The translations under genes were made by a program, and so were the position numbers. Source: Bdellovibrionales bacterium (GTDB lineage: Bacteria > Bdellovibrionota > Bdellovibrionia > Bdellovibrionales > UBA1609). From it: DNA of 51,501 nucleotides. Below, one piece after another: positions 4,718-22,056 of the stretch. The DNA is taken from the NCBI GenBank assembly GCA_007128005.1, contig SKYF01000117.1:1-51501 (forward strand), read 5' to 3'. The first letter of the stretch is position 1. Each line of letters starts with the position of its first letter. The notes under the pieces are model-generated. The model saw nothing but the letters and a program-made list of their open reading frames with translations, did not search any database and was not told the DNA's origin.

Positions 4718-4825
4718 ACCCTGTTTAAAGCAGACATTCACTCCCACCTTGAATCAAGTAAAGTCAGTGAGTTAAAGTAGGAACAATTTTTGCCACTCCA
4801 TCTTTGAATAAGGGAGGGGCTATTT

Positions 4826-5998
4826 ATGACTTTAAATTTTCACTCAATCCGCAATCTATGCCTAGTTGGTGTCGCTTTGGCTTGGCTTTCTGGCTGTGAA
4901 TCCAGCAATTCTCCAAGTGTGCTCTCCAATCAAGGCTCACAGGGAGTTGACTCCTCCTGCGGGGAGTATGCCGACGGCGAACTTTGGTTTGAAATCTCAG
5001 ATCAAACAAGCACCCACGACTATATATGTCCTGATGGAAGCCAGGGCTCTGCAACCCACATCGTTGAGGCTCAGCTCAAATGTGAACAGGGGCAGGCAGT
5101 TGCGACTGGTGTCACGCGGCCTGAGCGCGCTCCCATTAGCACCACCTGCGAAGTCGGCCAAAATGATCCCGACCCCAATCCTCCACCGGACGCCACTCCG
5201 CCGCCGCAGCTGTGCAGCCCTGGCTCCAGTCAATCTTGCCCTGTGACCAACGGATCTGGACTCCAGTTTTGCAATCTCACAGGCTCAGAATGGAGTGAGT
5301 GTCGAGTCAGGAGATGTGACCCAGGCTTTACTCAGGTGGGCAACCTCTGTGTGGTCAGCCAGCCCTCTGAGCAGAGTGTCGAAGATCAAATTGTCAGTTT
5401 TTATTGGACTCATTTAAATAGAGCTCCTGATCAAAGTGGTCTGCTCTACTACCTGCAGAAATACAATGAGGGTGTGTCTTTAATGCAAATAGAAGACAGT
5501 ATTGCCAACTCCTTTGAAGCGGCTGTCAGAAGGGCCTTTATGACTCACCTACTCAGGGCACCAAGTCTTGACGAGCAAATCATTGAGTCACGCTCTATCA
5601 AAAGCGAAAGTCAATTGAGCGAGTTTTTGACGGCTGTTAGAAAGTCTGTCTACTGTCAGGCAGACTGTCTTGAGGAGAACCTCAAAGCACAGAAGCAGCG
5701 CCATGAGCCAAGCATTAAGGGTTATTACCACCTTCATCTCAACCGCGATCCAGACATCCTTGGCTTGAACTACTGGATAGATCAGGCCATGAATGGCACA
5801 TTATTGACGACCATTGAGTATGCCTTCAGAAACTCACCAGAGGCTTTTATTAGAAGCTACTATTTAGAGCACCTTTTGCGCGAGCCAGACCTAGCTGGGC
5901 GCATCTTCTACCTCGATAGATACAATGAGGGGTTCTCGCTGGAGCAGATTAGACTCAACATCCGTTCATCCCCAGAGTGCAAGGTCAGCTGTCTCTGA
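4826..5998 (+). CDS. Lipoprotein with DUF4214-like repeats
   Basis: 390 residues; ATG behind AAGGGAGGGG (4810-4819). The signal peptide ends in lipobox LSGC (Cys 24), predicting a lipid anchor. Residues about 25-185 form a Cys-containing spacer with a Pro/Asp-rich linker (DPNPPPDATPPPQLCSPG) and paired cysteines. The C-terminal half (about 187-390) holds repeated units of the type FYWTHLNRAPDQSGLLYYL, YYHLHLNRDPDILGLNYWI and YYLEHLLREPDLAGRIFYL, which resemble the DUF4214 repeat found in surface and S-layer-type proteins. One unit (about 232-260) is degenerate. Function unknown; a surface or carbohydrate-associated role is inferred from the repeat family. Confidence 0.72.
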   Translation: MTLNFHSIRNLCLVGVALAWLSGCESSNSPSVLSNQGSQGVDSSCGEYADGELWFEISDQTSTHDYICPDGSQGSATHIVEAQLKCEQGQAVATGVTRPERAPISTTCEVGQNDPDPNPPPDATPPPQLCSPGSSQSCPVTNGSGLQFCNLTGSEWSECRVRRCDPGFTQVGNLCVVSQPSEQSVEDQIVSFYWTHLNRAPDQSGLLYYLQKYNEGVSLMQIEDSIANSFEAAVRRAFMTHLLRAPSLDEQIIESRSIKSESQLSEFLTAVRKSVYCQADCLEENLKAQKQRHEPSIKGYYHLHLNRDPDILGLNYWIDQAMNGTLLTTIEYAFRNSPEAFIRSYYLEHLLREPDLAGRIFYLDRYNEGFSLEQIRLNIRSSPECKVSCL

Positions 5999-11107: not shown

Positions 11108-11875
11108 TTGCAAACTACAGAGCCATTAAACAGCCCCAAAGGCCACTACTCGCAATCTGGGGGACTGATCTATCACTTCAGGGCTTTGCAGTACAGACAC
11201 AGTCTTTGGTCCAGCTACTGTCAGGGGGTTCAAAACTGGCTAAGAAACTGGACTCCTAAGGAAGATAAACTCATTCTTATTGGCCCCAGCTTGGGATGGT
11301 CCCTATCGAGTGATTTTTTGTCTCGTTTTGAGACAGTGGTGGCCCTGGACCCAGACCCTTGGGCGCGCTGGCTGCTGGGTAGAAGGTTTGCAAAAAATCA
11401 GATCCGCTGGATGAAAGAAGATGCCCTCGCCTCACCAAACCTGACTGCCCTTAAAGAGCAGTTCCCTGAGCATGCACTTTTGTTTTGCAATGTTTTGGGG
11501 CAGATACCTCTGATCTACCCAAGCCTTGATTTTCCCGACTGGAAAAGAAAGTTTACATCTCAGCTCGACGACTGGTCCTGGGCCAGCTATCACGATCTCT
11601 ACTCAGGCCAATGCCCTCCCCCTTCTCCAGCCCTTATGGAGAAAGTGCGGGGCTTGAGGCAATCACCCACTTCGTCTGAGCTCAGGCTGATCTTTGCGCG
11701 CAACTTAGACCGAGTGGGCCATATCCAGGACCATGAAACTGCCGAGCTGTTTGAGTCCCTCCGGACAGACAGAGACAAGACAGCCCCTCCTGACTATCTT
11801 CTGTGGGAAATCCGACCGGCTTACCTACATCTGATTGAGCTTTTGAGGTCTACTAAAAGCAGCTCTTGGCCATAA
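11108..11875 (+). CDS. Methyltransferase-like (Rossmann) protein
   Basis: 255 residues from TTG 11108; a poly-G run lies a few bases upstream. Residues about 53-110 look like a class I SAM-dependent methyltransferase core: strand-loop LILIGPSLGWSLS in place of the usual GxGxG, then VVALDPDPWARWLL with acidic residues where the SAM ribose is bound, then RWMKEDAL. No catalytic motif such as NPPY is visible, so the substrate is unknown and catalysis uncertain. Its last 23 nt overlap the 3' end of the opposite-strand coiled-coil gene. Confidence 0.55.
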   Translation: MQTTEPLNSPKGHYSQSGGLIYHFRALQYRHSLWSSYCQGVQNWLRNWTPKEDKLILIGPSLGWSLSSDFLSRFETVVALDPDPWARWLLGRRFAKNQIRWMKEDALASPNLTALKEQFPEHALLFCNVLGQIPLIYPSLDFPDWKRKFTSQLDDWSWASYHDLYSGQCPPPSPALMEKVRGLRQSPTSSELRLIFARNLDRVGHIQDHETAELFESLRTDRDKTAPPDYLLWEIRPAYLHLIELLRSTKSSSWP

Positions 11876-13085
11876 AGCCCCGCTGCCCTGAACGCAGCTG
11901 AACCTGAAACCAAGCCTCTGAGTGATCCACCGTGAGGACTTGTGTCCCTTGGGGAACTTCTAAGAGAACTCGAGCTGGCGCTCTTGCACTGGGTTGATTG
12001 CGCAAGTTGCAGTTTCTTGTCACCACCCGCCGCTGAGGTCTTTGCGCCTGAGGTTGGCGCTGTTGTGGCCTTGGTTTTAACTCTGCCTGAACCGACCCTG
12101 CTCCTAACTTGGCCCTCTGGTTGATGACCTGCTGTTCAGCAGCTGTGGCCTGGGTCCGCGCTCGCACCTCTTGGTCTCGACTGGCCTGAGCCTGACTTTG
12201 GGCCTTTGCCTTTCTCTCCTGAGCCCTTTGCGCAAGGGCTCTTTGCTCACCACGCAGCTGTTCAGCTCTGATCTCCGCCTCGCGCGCTCGGGCTCGACTC
12301 TGCTCGGCCTCCGCCTCAGCCATCACTGCCTGCTCCTGAAGCCCCTGGACCTGTCTTCTTAAATCGCGCACTTCTTGCTCAGTGGAGGCCACCTTTTGCT
12401 TGGATCTGGCAATGTCTTGGCGATACATCTCGATGCGCTTTTCAGATTCAGCTTTTTCTCGCAAGTGAGTTTCCCTGGCTCCTGCCAACCGCTCCATGGC
12501 GACGTTTTCCTGAGCTTTGGTATCTTGAAGTTCACGCTGAACTCGACTGCTCTGGTCGCGAGCGGCCTGAATCTCAGATTCTACTTTGCGTGAGGTCTCA
12601 ACAATTTCTGCCACTTTGGCGACCTGAGCATCCCTCTCCTGCTTGGCCTGCTCAGTCTGAGACTTCACCTGCTCAAGCTCTTGTCGCTGACGGGCGATTC
12701 TCTCCTCGTACTCCCTCATTTCCTGTTCAGCCTGAGCTTTGCTCTGCTCATATCTCTGTCTCTCGGCCAGGCTGGTGGTTCTTGCTCTTTCCAGCTCGTC
12801 GATCTCCAGTTTGGCATCTCGCTCTTTGGCCCTGGCTCTGGCCACGGCCGCCTCAGCCTCTTTCTTGGCTGCCTCTTGACGGCGTTTCTCCTCATCCGCT
12901 CGACGCCTGGCTGCCTCAGCCTCAGCTCTGGCCGCCTCGGATTCAGCCATGGCCTCTTCCATACCCAACTCCACATCATCTAAGTCAAAGCCGTACAACG
13001 GAAAGGCTGTTGTCGTCAGGGCCAACAAAACTATTGCCAGCCATCTCGATAAAATTTGGGGGCACCCTATCTTGTTCCAATCCAT
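11853..13085 (-). CDS. Exported coiled-coil protein with C-terminal SH3 domain
   Basis: 410 residues. Hydrophobic leader (WLAIVLLALTTTAFPLYGF), then a very long heptad-rich coiled coil (about 45-320) dominated by Ala, Glu, Arg and Gln, then a Gln/Pro/Arg-rich linker and a bacterial SH3-type domain (NCNLRNQPSARAPARVLLEV ... AWFQVQLRSGQRGFMAKSCF). SH3 domains of this kind often bind peptidoglycan or proteins, and with the coiled coil this suggests an envelope-spanning or division-site factor. Function not assignable. The opposite strand carries long spurious ORFs because of the repetitive codon pattern. Confidence 0.68.
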   Translation of the reverse strand: MDWNKIGCPQILSRWLAIVLLALTTTAFPLYGFDLDDVELGMEEAMAESEAARAEAEAARRRADEEKRRQEAAKKEAEAAVARARAKERDAKLEIDELERARTTSLAERQRYEQSKAQAEQEMREYEERIARQRQELEQVKSQTEQAKQERDAQVAKVAEIVETSRKVESEIQAARDQSSRVQRELQDTKAQENVAMERLAGARETHLREKAESEKRIEMYRQDIARSKQKVASTEQEVRDLRRQVQGLQEQAVMAEAEAEQSRARAREAEIRAEQLRGEQRALAQRAQERKAKAQSQAQASRDQEVRARTQATAAEQQVINQRAKLGAGSVQAELKPRPQQRQPQAQRPQRRVVTRNCNLRNQPSARAPARVLLEVPQGTQVLTVDHSEAWFQVQLRSGQRGFMAKSCF

Positions 13086-13673: not shown

Positions 13674-13685
13674 AAGAAGCCTTAA
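13662..13685 (+). repeat. 12-bp tandem duplication across a stop codon
   Basis: AAGAAGCCTTAA occurs twice back to back (13662-13673 and 13674-13685). The first copy ends with the thioesterase stop and the second repeats Lys-Lys-Pro-stop in frame. It looks like a recent slippage event. Confidence 0.85.
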
Positions 13686-13784
13686 TAGCTGAAATTAATA
13701 CAGCTTATAACCCATTTTTGAACCAGCCTGTTTTTTAAACAAAAAAATAACGAATTTCTTATAAAAAACAAACACTTGAGGTCC

Positions 13785-13790
13785 TATACT
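13785..13790 (+). promoter_or_regulatory. Candidate -10 box for the small RNA
   Basis: TATACT lies within a very AT-rich stretch (about 13690-13780, with A- and T-runs resembling an UP element). No good -35 hexamer is seen at the standard distance, so the promoter call is tentative. Initiation would fall near 13797. Confidence 0.4.
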
Positions 13791-13796
13791 GAGTTT

Positions 13797-13991
13797 GAGA
13801 AGAGCTCAGAAGGAGAGACCGTCTTCCCCAAAAAGGCTCCAACTGCCAAAATCTGGCCCTCCCACTTCCCCTAAAACGCATTTTATTCGACCTGAGCTCG
13901 ACCAAAGTTGGCATCACCTTTGCTATATGAATGAGTATCCCCCCTTGGCGACCTGGTACCCCCTCCTTACCCTCCAGGTCGCTTTTTTTTT
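13797..13991 (+). ncRNA. Candidate small RNA with C-rich anti-Shine-Dalgarno loops
   Basis: A region of about 195 nt between an AT-rich promoter-like stretch and a strong intrinsic terminator, with no credible ORF; the 68-codon frame across it runs through the terminator. GAGCTCAG (13802-13809) pairs with CTGAGCTC (13892-13899) and closes a domain. Small stems GCCA/TGGC (near 13845-13857) and CAAAG/CTTTG (near 13903-13921) follow. Unpaired C-rich tracts (near 13824-13829, 13858-13871, 13939-13944) and the terminator loop CCCCCTCCTT are complementary to ribosome sites of the AAGGAGGGGG type. It does not look like 6S, RNase P, SRP RNA or tmRNA. It could instead be a leader of the downstream esterase. 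Confidence 0.5.
13948..13991 (+). terminator. Strong intrinsic terminator
   Basis: Perfect 9-bp stem GCGACCTGG (13948-13956) / CCAGGTCGC (13974-13982) with a 17-nt C-rich loop, followed by nine T residues (13983-13991). This is the clearest intrinsic terminator in the window. It acts on the + strand only. Confidence 0.88.
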
Positions 13992-14036
13992 GCCCTCTTG
14001 AAAACGGATCCAAAAAGCGTTATTGTGCAGCGCAAT

Positions 14037-14757: not shown

Positions 14758-15606
14758 ATGAAGAAAGGTTCTCTATCTCGACAGGCCTTCCCAGGCCATT
14801 TAGGGCGGTGTTTAAGGGGTCTCCTCGGAGGACTCCTCCTATGGGGTCATTTCAGCCATTCGGCCTGGGCTCTGCATGTGGTTCTGGATCCCGGACACGG
14901 AGGGCGAGATCTGGGAGCCACTCGCGGAGACATTCGGGAAGCCGAACTGGCTCTCAAGATTGCACAGATGTTGGCAGATAAGCTGGATGCCTCCCCCCAA
15001 TTTCGTGTGACTTTGACACGCAATCAAGACCACTTCCTCAGTCTGGATGAGCGGGTGGAGATCGCCACTCAGGTCAATGGCGACCTCTTCTTGAGCCTTC
15101 ACTTGAACTCCTCTCCCGACCCCAGAGCTCGAGGCGTAGAGTTCTATTTTCGCAACCAACTGCCCCCTGACGAAGAGGCCATGGCTTTGGCGGCCCGAGA
15201 AAATGAACACTATCTGGCCCATGTCTTTGGAGAGTCAGCCCAGTCCACCTCATCCCAGGCGCCCCAAAAAGGACTGCAGCCCCGGGCAGAGGTCAGTCTG
15301 ATTATCGAGGACCTCATCGAACAAAAGCGCACTCGTCTGAGTAGCGAACTGGCGCGAAGACTAGATCGCCACTGGCAGGGCGGAAGAAAGTCCCGAGCCA
15401 ACACCATACGCCAGGCCCCCTTTCGTGTGATCGCCCAGGCCCCTATGCCATCCGCCCTGGTTGAGCTGGGCTTTATCTCCCACCCCCGGGAGGCGCAGCA
15501 GCTCACCGATCGAGGGTTCCAAAAGAGGCTCGTTGAAGGCCTGTTCAGAGGTTTGCAAGATTTTAAAGAAGTATTGGACAAGGACAAGGCCATCGGCCTA
15601 CAGTAG
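14758..15606 (+). CDS. N-acetylmuramoyl-L-alanine amidase (Amidase_3)
   Basis: 282 residues with signal peptide (hydrophobic GLLGGLLLWG, end near SAWALH). Zinc amidase of the AmiA/B/C catalytic type, cleaving the bond between muramic acid and the peptide stem in the periplasm. Zinc ligands: H47 in DPGHGG, E61 in REAEL and H115 in SLHLNSS; the catalytic Glu is in LVELGFIS. No AMIN localisation domain is present, so it is shorter than AmiC. The segment between residues about 150 and 220 resembles the regulatory helix region that blocks the site in Ami proteins. It sits 5 nt before rph. Confidence 0.87.
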   Translation: MKKGSLSRQAFPGHLGRCLRGLLGGLLLWGHFSHSAWALHVVLDPGHGGRDLGATRGDIREAELALKIAQMLADKLDASPQFRVTLTRNQDHFLSLDERVEIATQVNGDLFLSLHLNSSPDPRARGVEFYFRNQLPPDEEAMALAARENEHYLAHVFGESAQSTSSQAPQKGLQPRAEVSLIIEDLIEQKRTRLSSELARRLDRHWQGGRKSRANTIRQAPFRVIAQAPMPSALVELGFISHPREAQQLTDRGFQKRLVEGLFRGLQDFKEVLDKDKAIGLQ

Positions 15607-20913: not shown

Positions 20914-21894
20914 TCAAGGTTCCATCTGCCCGATTCTCTTGGCAATGGTTTCTAACATCTTTTGAACCTCTTCCCAGCGCCGCTCTCTGCGCTTTAAAAA
21001 GTTAGACTCAATTTCAATGATCTCTGCAAGATCTTCTCTTTTGGCCTGTTGAGGGCCTACCAAAATAGAGCGAGCCGTTGCATGATAGAGTGAAAACAGA
21101 GCTCGGTTTTTAAAAGCATCGTCCTTATCCTTATACAGATCTTCTGGTTCCGACCGAGAGAAAAATCTTTCCATGACTGAGGGCTTTCGCTCCGGCACTC
21201 CACCCCCTTGCAGTTGATCTATCTTCTCTGGCCACATCTCCACAAGCTCCTGGACAGTTTTGTAGGGAACAGTGGCCAATATTTCAATAAATTCAATTGA
21301 GTGGAGTTTTTCAGCGATGCTCTCATCATAGTCTAACAGCAGGGGGGACTCTGAAAGCTCTTTGGCTAAGTTTTCCAAACTGGCATAATCACGTTGGCTC
21401 AACCGATTGTCCAAGAGATGCCTGTAGGCCTGTTCATCCATCCCTGAGAGGGACTTGTGATACTTGGATTGAAGGTGATACTCTAAACCCACCAGGGAGC
21501 TATAAAAGTCCATTTCTTGATACTCTTGCTCAAATTTCTGACGAAGATCCGGATCTGTAATCCGGCTTATTTTTTTAGACAGACCGCTGATATGCTCATG
21601 GTAAACTCCCTGCAAGATCATCATATGGGGAAAGTGAATCATGTGGTCCGCATCAGGACTCAAAACTTGGCGCAAATAGACAGATACCTGAGAGGCCCTA
21701 TATAGCTTCTGTTTGACCTCTTCCATCTCCGGAAAATTGGAAGCCCCTCGAGATGCGTTCGATCCACTGCTTTTCAATAGGCTTGAACAGAAGCTCAAAA
21801 AGCCCTTCTTAGACTCTTCAGCCCCCTTGGCCGGAACAGCCAAAACGAGGCTCGTCACCAGTAAACCTACAAGAAGAGACACAACTTGAGTCAA
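20914..21894 (-). CDS. Exported hypothetical protein, helical
   Basis: 326 residues from TTG 21894 behind AGGAGG. Signal peptide MTQVVSLLVGLLVTSLVLAV ends near AKGAEE. The mature part is almost wholly helical with many charged residues (QKFEQEYQEMDFYSSLVGLE, EIIEIESNFLKRRERRWEE) and has two cysteines at most. No family recognised. It stands alone between two minus-strand genes; about 160 nt upstream (21895-22056) hold no ORF I can support. Confidence 0.62.
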   Translation of the reverse strand: MTQVVSLLVGLLVTSLVLAVPAKGAEESKKGFLSFCSSLLKSSGSNASRGASNFPEMEEVKQKLYRASQVSVYLRQVLSPDADHMIHFPHMMILQGVYHEHISGLSKKISRITDPDLRQKFEQEYQEMDFYSSLVGLEYHLQSKYHKSLSGMDEQAYRHLLDNRLSQRDYASLENLAKELSESPLLLDYDESIAEKLHSIEFIEILATVPYKTVQELVEMWPEKIDQLQGGGVPERKPSVMERFFSRSEPEDLYKDKDDAFKNRALFSLYHATARSILVGPQQAKREDLAEIIEIESNFLKRRERRWEEVQKMLETIAKRIGQMEP

Positions 21895-22056
21895 AGTACC
21901 TCCTGGACAGATAGAAAAGTGGCTACACCCTTAGCCTGCCATCCGTAAAAGAGCAATAATGATACCAAAAGACGAGGAGTGGAAAGGTTAGCAATGGGTC
22001 AGAAATGGGGGCTGGAGACAGGAAAGATTTATAGGGTTGAAAAAAATTTTCACAGC

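Follow-up and report, generated by a model that had tools for sequence, protein, structure and literature searches.

A predicted sigma-54-controlled small RNA with two C-rich tracts, conserved across the Bdellovibrio-like class

In alphaproteobacteria, the CCUCC-loop RNAs (such as suhB/mmgR, RF00519) carry C-rich loops that are complementary to ribosome sites. Pairing by C-rich stretches has also been described in other bacteria. In the B11/6C RNA of mycobacteria, either of two C-rich loops represses a leader with a six-G tract, and does so without a known chaperone (PMC10470900). RepG, from Helicobacter pylori, has a C/U-rich terminator loop that pairs with a G-run in the leader of its target (PMC8295292). 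CJnc230 (also FlmE), an RpoN-dependent RNA of 98/88 nt that is processed from the flgE mRNA of Campylobacter jejuni, has a single-stranded anti-SD stretch, with which it acts on the ribosome sites of flagella-related mRNAs and represses them (PMC11187230). Finally, several small RNAs have been reported in Bdellovibrio bacteriovorus; the published RNA-seq of strain HD100 lists only attack-phase RNAs, which are little conserved, and growth-phase RNAs were not callable in that study for want of start-site data (PMC3627812).

The RNA of interest lies in a 51,501-nucleotide stretch of a Bdellovibrionales genome; this whole stretch is referred to here as the window. It is probably an Hfq-independent, sigma-54-controlled, trans-acting small RNA, whose two C-tracts would pair with G-rich ribosome sites and whose expression is probably coupled to flagella. 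The features of the locus are as follows:

11853–13085, minus strand: gene for a divergent coiled-coil protein (tblastn synteny), a conserved upstream neighbour in many relatives
13908–13924, plus strand: predicted sigma-54 (RpoN) promoter TTGGCAT-CACCT-TTGCT, with the -24 GG at 13910–13911 and the -12 GC at 13922–13923
13935–13991 (end at about 13990), plus strand: predicted small RNA of about 56 nt (covariance model match and fold)
13939–13944, plus strand: 5' C-tract CCCCCC, predicted seed 1, at about +5 of the RNA
13948–13956, plus strand: 5' arm of the hairpin, GCGACCTGG (covariation)
13957–13973, plus strand: C-rich terminator loop TACCCCCTCCTTACCCT, predicted seed 2 (C-run conservation)
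13974–13982, plus strand: 3' arm of the hairpin, CCAGGTCGC (covariation with the 5' arm)
13983–13991, plus strand: T9 tract of the intrinsic terminator, seen in nearly all aligned loci
14758–15606, plus strand: N-acetylmuramoyl-L-alanine amidase gene (Amidase_3; Pfam PF01520, E 4.1e-43), after which come rph, rdgB and prs

Like the 6C RNA/B11 sRNA (RF01066, Actinobacteria), the present RNA is short and has two unpaired C-rich tracts. However, 6C consists of two hairpins with C-rich loops, whereas fold and covariation give the present RNA a single hairpin, with the tracts at its 5' end and in the terminator loop. It also differs in its predicted sigma-54 promoter, in the phylum that carries it, and in scoring far below the family threshold (20.6 bits for the copy in HD100, against a cut-off of 47; E 0.86); no RF01066 match at threshold was found in the window or in other family members. 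Against the suhB/mmgR family, RF00519, the window scores 14.2 bits (cut-off 41, E 2). By threshold, the RNA is not a member of the 6C or suhB families; by analogy, it is likely to act as they do. RepG and CJnc230, which were compared by description and Rfam only, differ from it in other ways: RepG has more than one stem-loop, an upstream G-repeat as its described target and no described 5' C-tract, and unlike CJnc230 the present RNA has a predicted sigma-54 promoter and terminator of its own and is not located beside flgE. The attack-phase small RNAs and merRNA of HD100 belong to the same organism group, with coordinates elsewhere. A search of Rfam with the region gave no match at gathering thresholds, and only chance-level scores at relaxed thresholds; other family members likewise gave sub-threshold scores only. 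Rfam contains no such family, in agreement with a sequence-only reading of the region, which had proposed an undescribed small RNA.

The predicted RNA reads GUAUCCCCCCUUGGCGACCUGGUACCCCCUCCUUACCCUCCAGGUCGCU8-9, if transcription is assumed to start 12 nt (plus or minus 2) downstream of the -12 C of the sigma-54 promoter. At the DNA level, the conserved block consists of TTGGCAY-N5-TTGCT, 12–20 bases, and CCCCCC-TTGGCGACCTGG-(C-rich loop)-CCAGGTCGC-T8-9. A covariance model (R1, built on 27 loci) matches 13908–13991 at 89.2 bits, with one match per genome. The last 56 nt have a stable predicted fold (z -5.1; 0 of 200 shuffles as good) in which both C-tracts are unpaired; the 5' C-tract usually begins 14–15 nt after the -12 C, i.e., only a few nucleotides into the RNA. 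The terminator had been recognized from the sequence alone, and is present as described: a 9-bp stem (13948–13956/13974–13982) followed by nine Ts, at which the predicted RNA ends. Its C-rich loop contains CCCCCTCCTT, including CCUCCUU, which resembles the 3' tail of 16S rRNA. The predicted RNA also has single-stranded C-rich tracts suited to G-rich ribosome sites, as had been proposed; there are two of them, both conserved.

Directly before the C-tract lies TTGGCATCACCTTTGCT (13908–13924), which the sequence-only reading overlooked. By the established consensus, its TTGGCAY-N5-TTGCT block is the -24/-12 element of sigma-54 promoters. Of 100 aligned loci, 95 have an intact GG-N9-TGC, and none of the 95 departs from GG or TGC. 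There are six exact TTGGCAY-N5-TTGCW sites in the 2.57-Mb source genome—the RNA promoter is one of these—and six in HD100. When up to one mismatch is permitted, the source genome contains 60 sites (versus 14 for a reversed-pattern control) and HD100 contains 87 (control: 39). RpoN itself is encoded in 127 of the 141 genomes of the order, the source genome included. Taken from these sequence comparisons, the sigma-54 promoter of the RNA family is almost certainly real. A search for an upstream activator motif shared by the class as a whole found none.

Several further observations concern sigma-54-like sites. In the genus Bdellovibrio (e.g., loci L081 and L097), conserved CGACAATTGTCG dyads and TGTC...GACA elements lie upstream of the RNA promoter; these resemble activator sites, and are absent outside the genus. 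The window contains a second sigma-54-like site with one mismatch (TTGGTATCATTATTGCT; 21952–21968, minus strand), some 60 bases upstream of the predicted start (near 21894, minus strand) of a gene with the ribosome site AGGAGG. In HD100, positions 83,740–86,830 contain two neighbouring sigma-54-like promoters (L201 and L202), each followed by a near-identical leader with a small hairpin; the shared leader sequence is AACTCAA(A/G)GCCTCCGCTTCGGCGTGCTCTAA.

When 59 related genomes were searched at the DNA level, positions 13904–13997 of the window were alone in having relatives, normally at one place per genome. The covariance model recovers the RNA in 116 of the 144 genomes of the class Bdellovibrionia. 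Of the 141 genomes of the order, 114 have it; for good genomes alone the figure is 91 of 103, and by genus it is 55 of 66. It is almost always present in a single copy, a count from which weak second matches in three genomes (G009, G019 and G056; 27–29 bits) were left out. The other 225 genomes of the phylum gave four weak matches only, at about chance level (E 0.001–0.008); no credible match was obtained outside the class, and a search of a phage collection gave no match. The 36 matches to a DNA pattern are nearly all in Bdellovibrionales, Bdellovibrionaceae, Oligoflexia or similar records, including B. bacteriovorus kdesi. A looser pattern also matched four viral contigs and one planctomycete, but the covariance model gives these no significant score, the highest being 15.1 bits (E 0.12), and they were rejected as chance.

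In an alignment of 100 distinct sequences, 99.4% of the cells of the 9-bp stem are paired. Two-sided changes are seen in eight of the nine stem pairs (64 cells), a level reached by 0 of 500 shuffles, and sliding the stem register reduces the paired fraction to 16–52%. The alignment used here was fitted to the model, and hence favours the structure; a MAFFT alignment of the 27 loci agrees with it. In three loci (L172, L175 and L179) the stem sequence has been replaced entirely, and both C-tracts are retained. These tracts persist more than any other part of the RNA. Before the stem, 98 of 100 loci carry a C-run of at least 4 (median 6), and within the loop 97 of 100 have one of the same minimum length (mean C fraction 0.63); CCUCC is present in only 49 of 101 matches. 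The existence of the RNA family is, on this comparative evidence, close to certain. A covariance search of relatives had been suggested together with the sequence-only reading; it finds the stem and loop class-wide, and since the loop and the 5' C-tract are both conserved across the class, the objection that the loops lack conservation fails. At one locus of a flagellate genome (L165, in G032), the hairpin and C-rich loop are kept, and the sigma-54 promoter and 5' C-tract have both been lost; the sister genomes in the same genus have no match to the RNA.

The proposed partners of the C-tracts are G-rich ribosome sites, which had been remarked upon in the window; the example given, TAAGGGAGGGG, is indeed present at 4809–4819, shortly 5' of the ATG at 4826. 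Predicted start choice favours SD sequences and biases the window figures, which are (i) the presence of at least five consecutive Gs at 12 of 50 predicted ribosome sites, versus ~1% of windows, and (ii) a mean pairing energy with the C-tracts of -11.6 kcal/mol for predicted ribosome sites, versus -4.9 further upstream. Genome-wide, GGGGGG-N3-11-ATG occurs 212 times in the source genome (84 for the reversed pattern) and 106 times in HD100 (32 for the reversed pattern), and the excess over the reversed control is 2–3 fold in most genomes of the order. This excess is not specific proof of pairing, because the C-tracts would pair with any G-rich site. Hfq (PF17209) was found in 0 of the 141 genomes of the order, with five control genomes positive. 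Overall, the RNA is likely to act in antisense at G-rich ribosome sites. A flagellin mRNA of HD100 (562,130), the best single lead, was followed across species as a candidate target; its SD, AAGGGGGGUUCUAUG, pairs with the 5' C-tract at -20.9 kcal/mol. This pairing site is kept only in HD100 and its two near relatives G063 and G048, with AGGAGG or other sites in orthologues elsewhere, and flagellin was rejected as a conserved target on these grounds.

There are other explanations of the locus. The sequence-only reading took the functional unit to be a ~195-nt sigma-70 RNA with long-range internal pairing, and the elements that it named all exist: TATACT (13785–13790), the 8-bp inverted repeat GAGCTCAG (13802–13809)/CTGAGCTC (13892–13899), and the terminator. 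However, there is no conservation upstream of 13908, even within the genus: the same-genus genome G001 shares nothing upstream of that point, and word-7 blastn found two short matches (25 and 33 bases) to 13675–13907 among all the loci compared, versus 125 loci for 13908–13991. Because conservation starts only at 13908, the 13802/13892 pairing is not kept in relatives, and it lies upstream of the predicted promoter and outside the predicted RNA. Further, as a 207-nt unit the region has a predicted fold barely more stable than that of shuffled sequence (z -1.79), and a promoter scan called no sigma-70 site at TATACT. A functional unit of this length is very improbable. What survives of the original proposal is an undescribed C-rich small RNA with its terminator; its size is reduced to ~56 nt, its promoter is replaced by the sigma-54 element at 13908–13924, and its internal pairing is lost. 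The hairpin plus T9, and the ATG that follows the C-tract in some members, could also point to nothing more than a short coding sequence or a terminator of transcription that has been conserved. This is just as improbable: were the element only a terminator, 100 loci would not have retained the C-rich loop and 5' C-tract along with the sigma-54 promoter, and the loop varies in length from 4 to 25 in single-base steps and across all three phases, so that no reading frame is kept and a coding function can be rejected.

The remaining alternatives accept the short RNA, and assign it a different role. The usual gene order is coiled-coil protein (divergent; no Pfam domain was found in it)–RNA–amidase–rph–rdgB–prs, the amidase gene being the usual downstream neighbour; in the source window, thioesterase and esterase genes intervene between the RNA and the amidase. 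The idea that the region is simply the leader of the esterase gene fails because, in other species, no esterase is found between the RNA unit and the amidase. A sigma-54-driven leader or attenuator of amidase-rph-rdgB-prs, with the short RNA as an aborted leader, would fit the 69 of 100 loci in which the RNA is codirectional with, and just upstream of, the amidase. Yet the RNA points away from the amidase in 15 loci from two families (the genus Bdellovibrio and, separately, L176), 16 loci have no amidase match nearby, and in L134 the RNA is convergent with the next gene, clpB. Due to these loci, an amidase cis-leader is not the conserved function, and was rejected as the sole one; there is also no evident alternative antiterminator pairing, and the conserved C-tracts would be left unexplained. 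Such a leader is, in our judgement, quite unlikely. We also think it unlikely, if a little less so, that the RNA does not regulate by antisense pairing but serves as a decoy for some protein with an affinity for C-rich RNA (e.g., Rho, or one of the cold-shock or KH type). In favour of a decoy, the trait that persists is C-richness and not exact sequence, and no conserved target mRNA was found with the one candidate, flagellin, that was followed across species; against it, the tracts are short, and form uninterrupted C-runs at two fixed sites that match unusually G-rich ribosome sites.

The reading that we prefer, a trans-acting antisense RNA, would operate as follows. The sigma-54 promoter would give rise to a free-standing ~56-nt RNA, ended by its own terminator hairpin. 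Two unpaired C-tracts would be exposed, one at the 5' end of the RNA and the other in the terminator loop, and these may anneal to G-rich Shine-Dalgarno sites of mRNAs and, with no need for Hfq, keep the ribosome from binding. By doing so, the RNA would most likely tune translation during the flagellar programme.

The class in question includes well-known predators, and an undescribed RNA family with one copy per genome runs through almost all of it. The copy in genome G061, which matches B. bacteriovorus HD100, is located at 2,620,002–2,620,084 on the minus strand. The same genome has a c-di-GMP-I riboswitch (RF01051) at 1,073,868–1,073,951 (minus strand), which falls inside the published merRNA coordinates, 1,073,741–1,074,185; none of the eight small RNAs in the published HD100 Table 2 is near 2,620,002–2,620,084 (PMC3627812). 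The HD100 locus thereby provides a named place at which to study how small RNAs exert control in a bacterium that lacks Hfq, and opens to direct testing a possible connection of sigma-54 and flagella with the predatory life cycle.

An association with flagella is suggested by two lines of evidence. Exact sigma-54 sites precede fliL (PF03748) in both the source genome and HD100, and in HD100 a one-mismatch site (L209) stands before a gene of flagellar rod type, identified by visual inspection of its sequence. In addition, flagellin is missing from 15 of the 141 genomes of the order, and the RNA is missing in 11 of these 15 compared with 16 of the 126 flagellate genomes (Fisher p 1.5e-6, uncorrected for shared ancestry). 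The association holds among good genomes only (p 5e-5, kinship ignored) and by genus (RNA missing in 5 of 9 aflagellate versus 6 of 57 flagellate genera; p 0.005); 6 of 94 good flagellate genomes have no RNA. Among the four aflagellate genomes that keep the RNA, two copies have no sigma-54 promoter (L016, L171), one has no C-tract in its loop (L157), and only that of G016 is intact. The RNA is thus lacking or damaged in 14 of 15 aflagellate versus 18 of 126 flagellate genomes, a comparison in which flagellum loss coincides with small genomes, and reduced genomes lose many things. Because sigma-54 drives flagellar genes, and loss or damage of the RNA accompanies loss of the flagellum, a tie between the RNA and the flagellar programme is plausible, at roughly even odds. 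A broader proposal, which we put forward tentatively and consider rather doubtful, is that the RNA could be a class-wide, Hfq-independent global regulator of translation: a minimal, two-seed mimic of the 16S anti-SD tail, fired by sigma-54 in the flagellar programme, that would damp a G-rich-SD regulon during the switch between growth and the motile attack phase.

Sigma-54 sites were also seen before other types of gene. Exact sites precede a TPR-type gene in both the source genome (G000) and HD100, and near-exact sites lie before an ExbB/TolQ-like gene and several exported proteins (including a serine protease and a CAP-domain-like protein). A sigma-54 regulon for Bdellovibrio can be drafted from the sites in G061 and G000.
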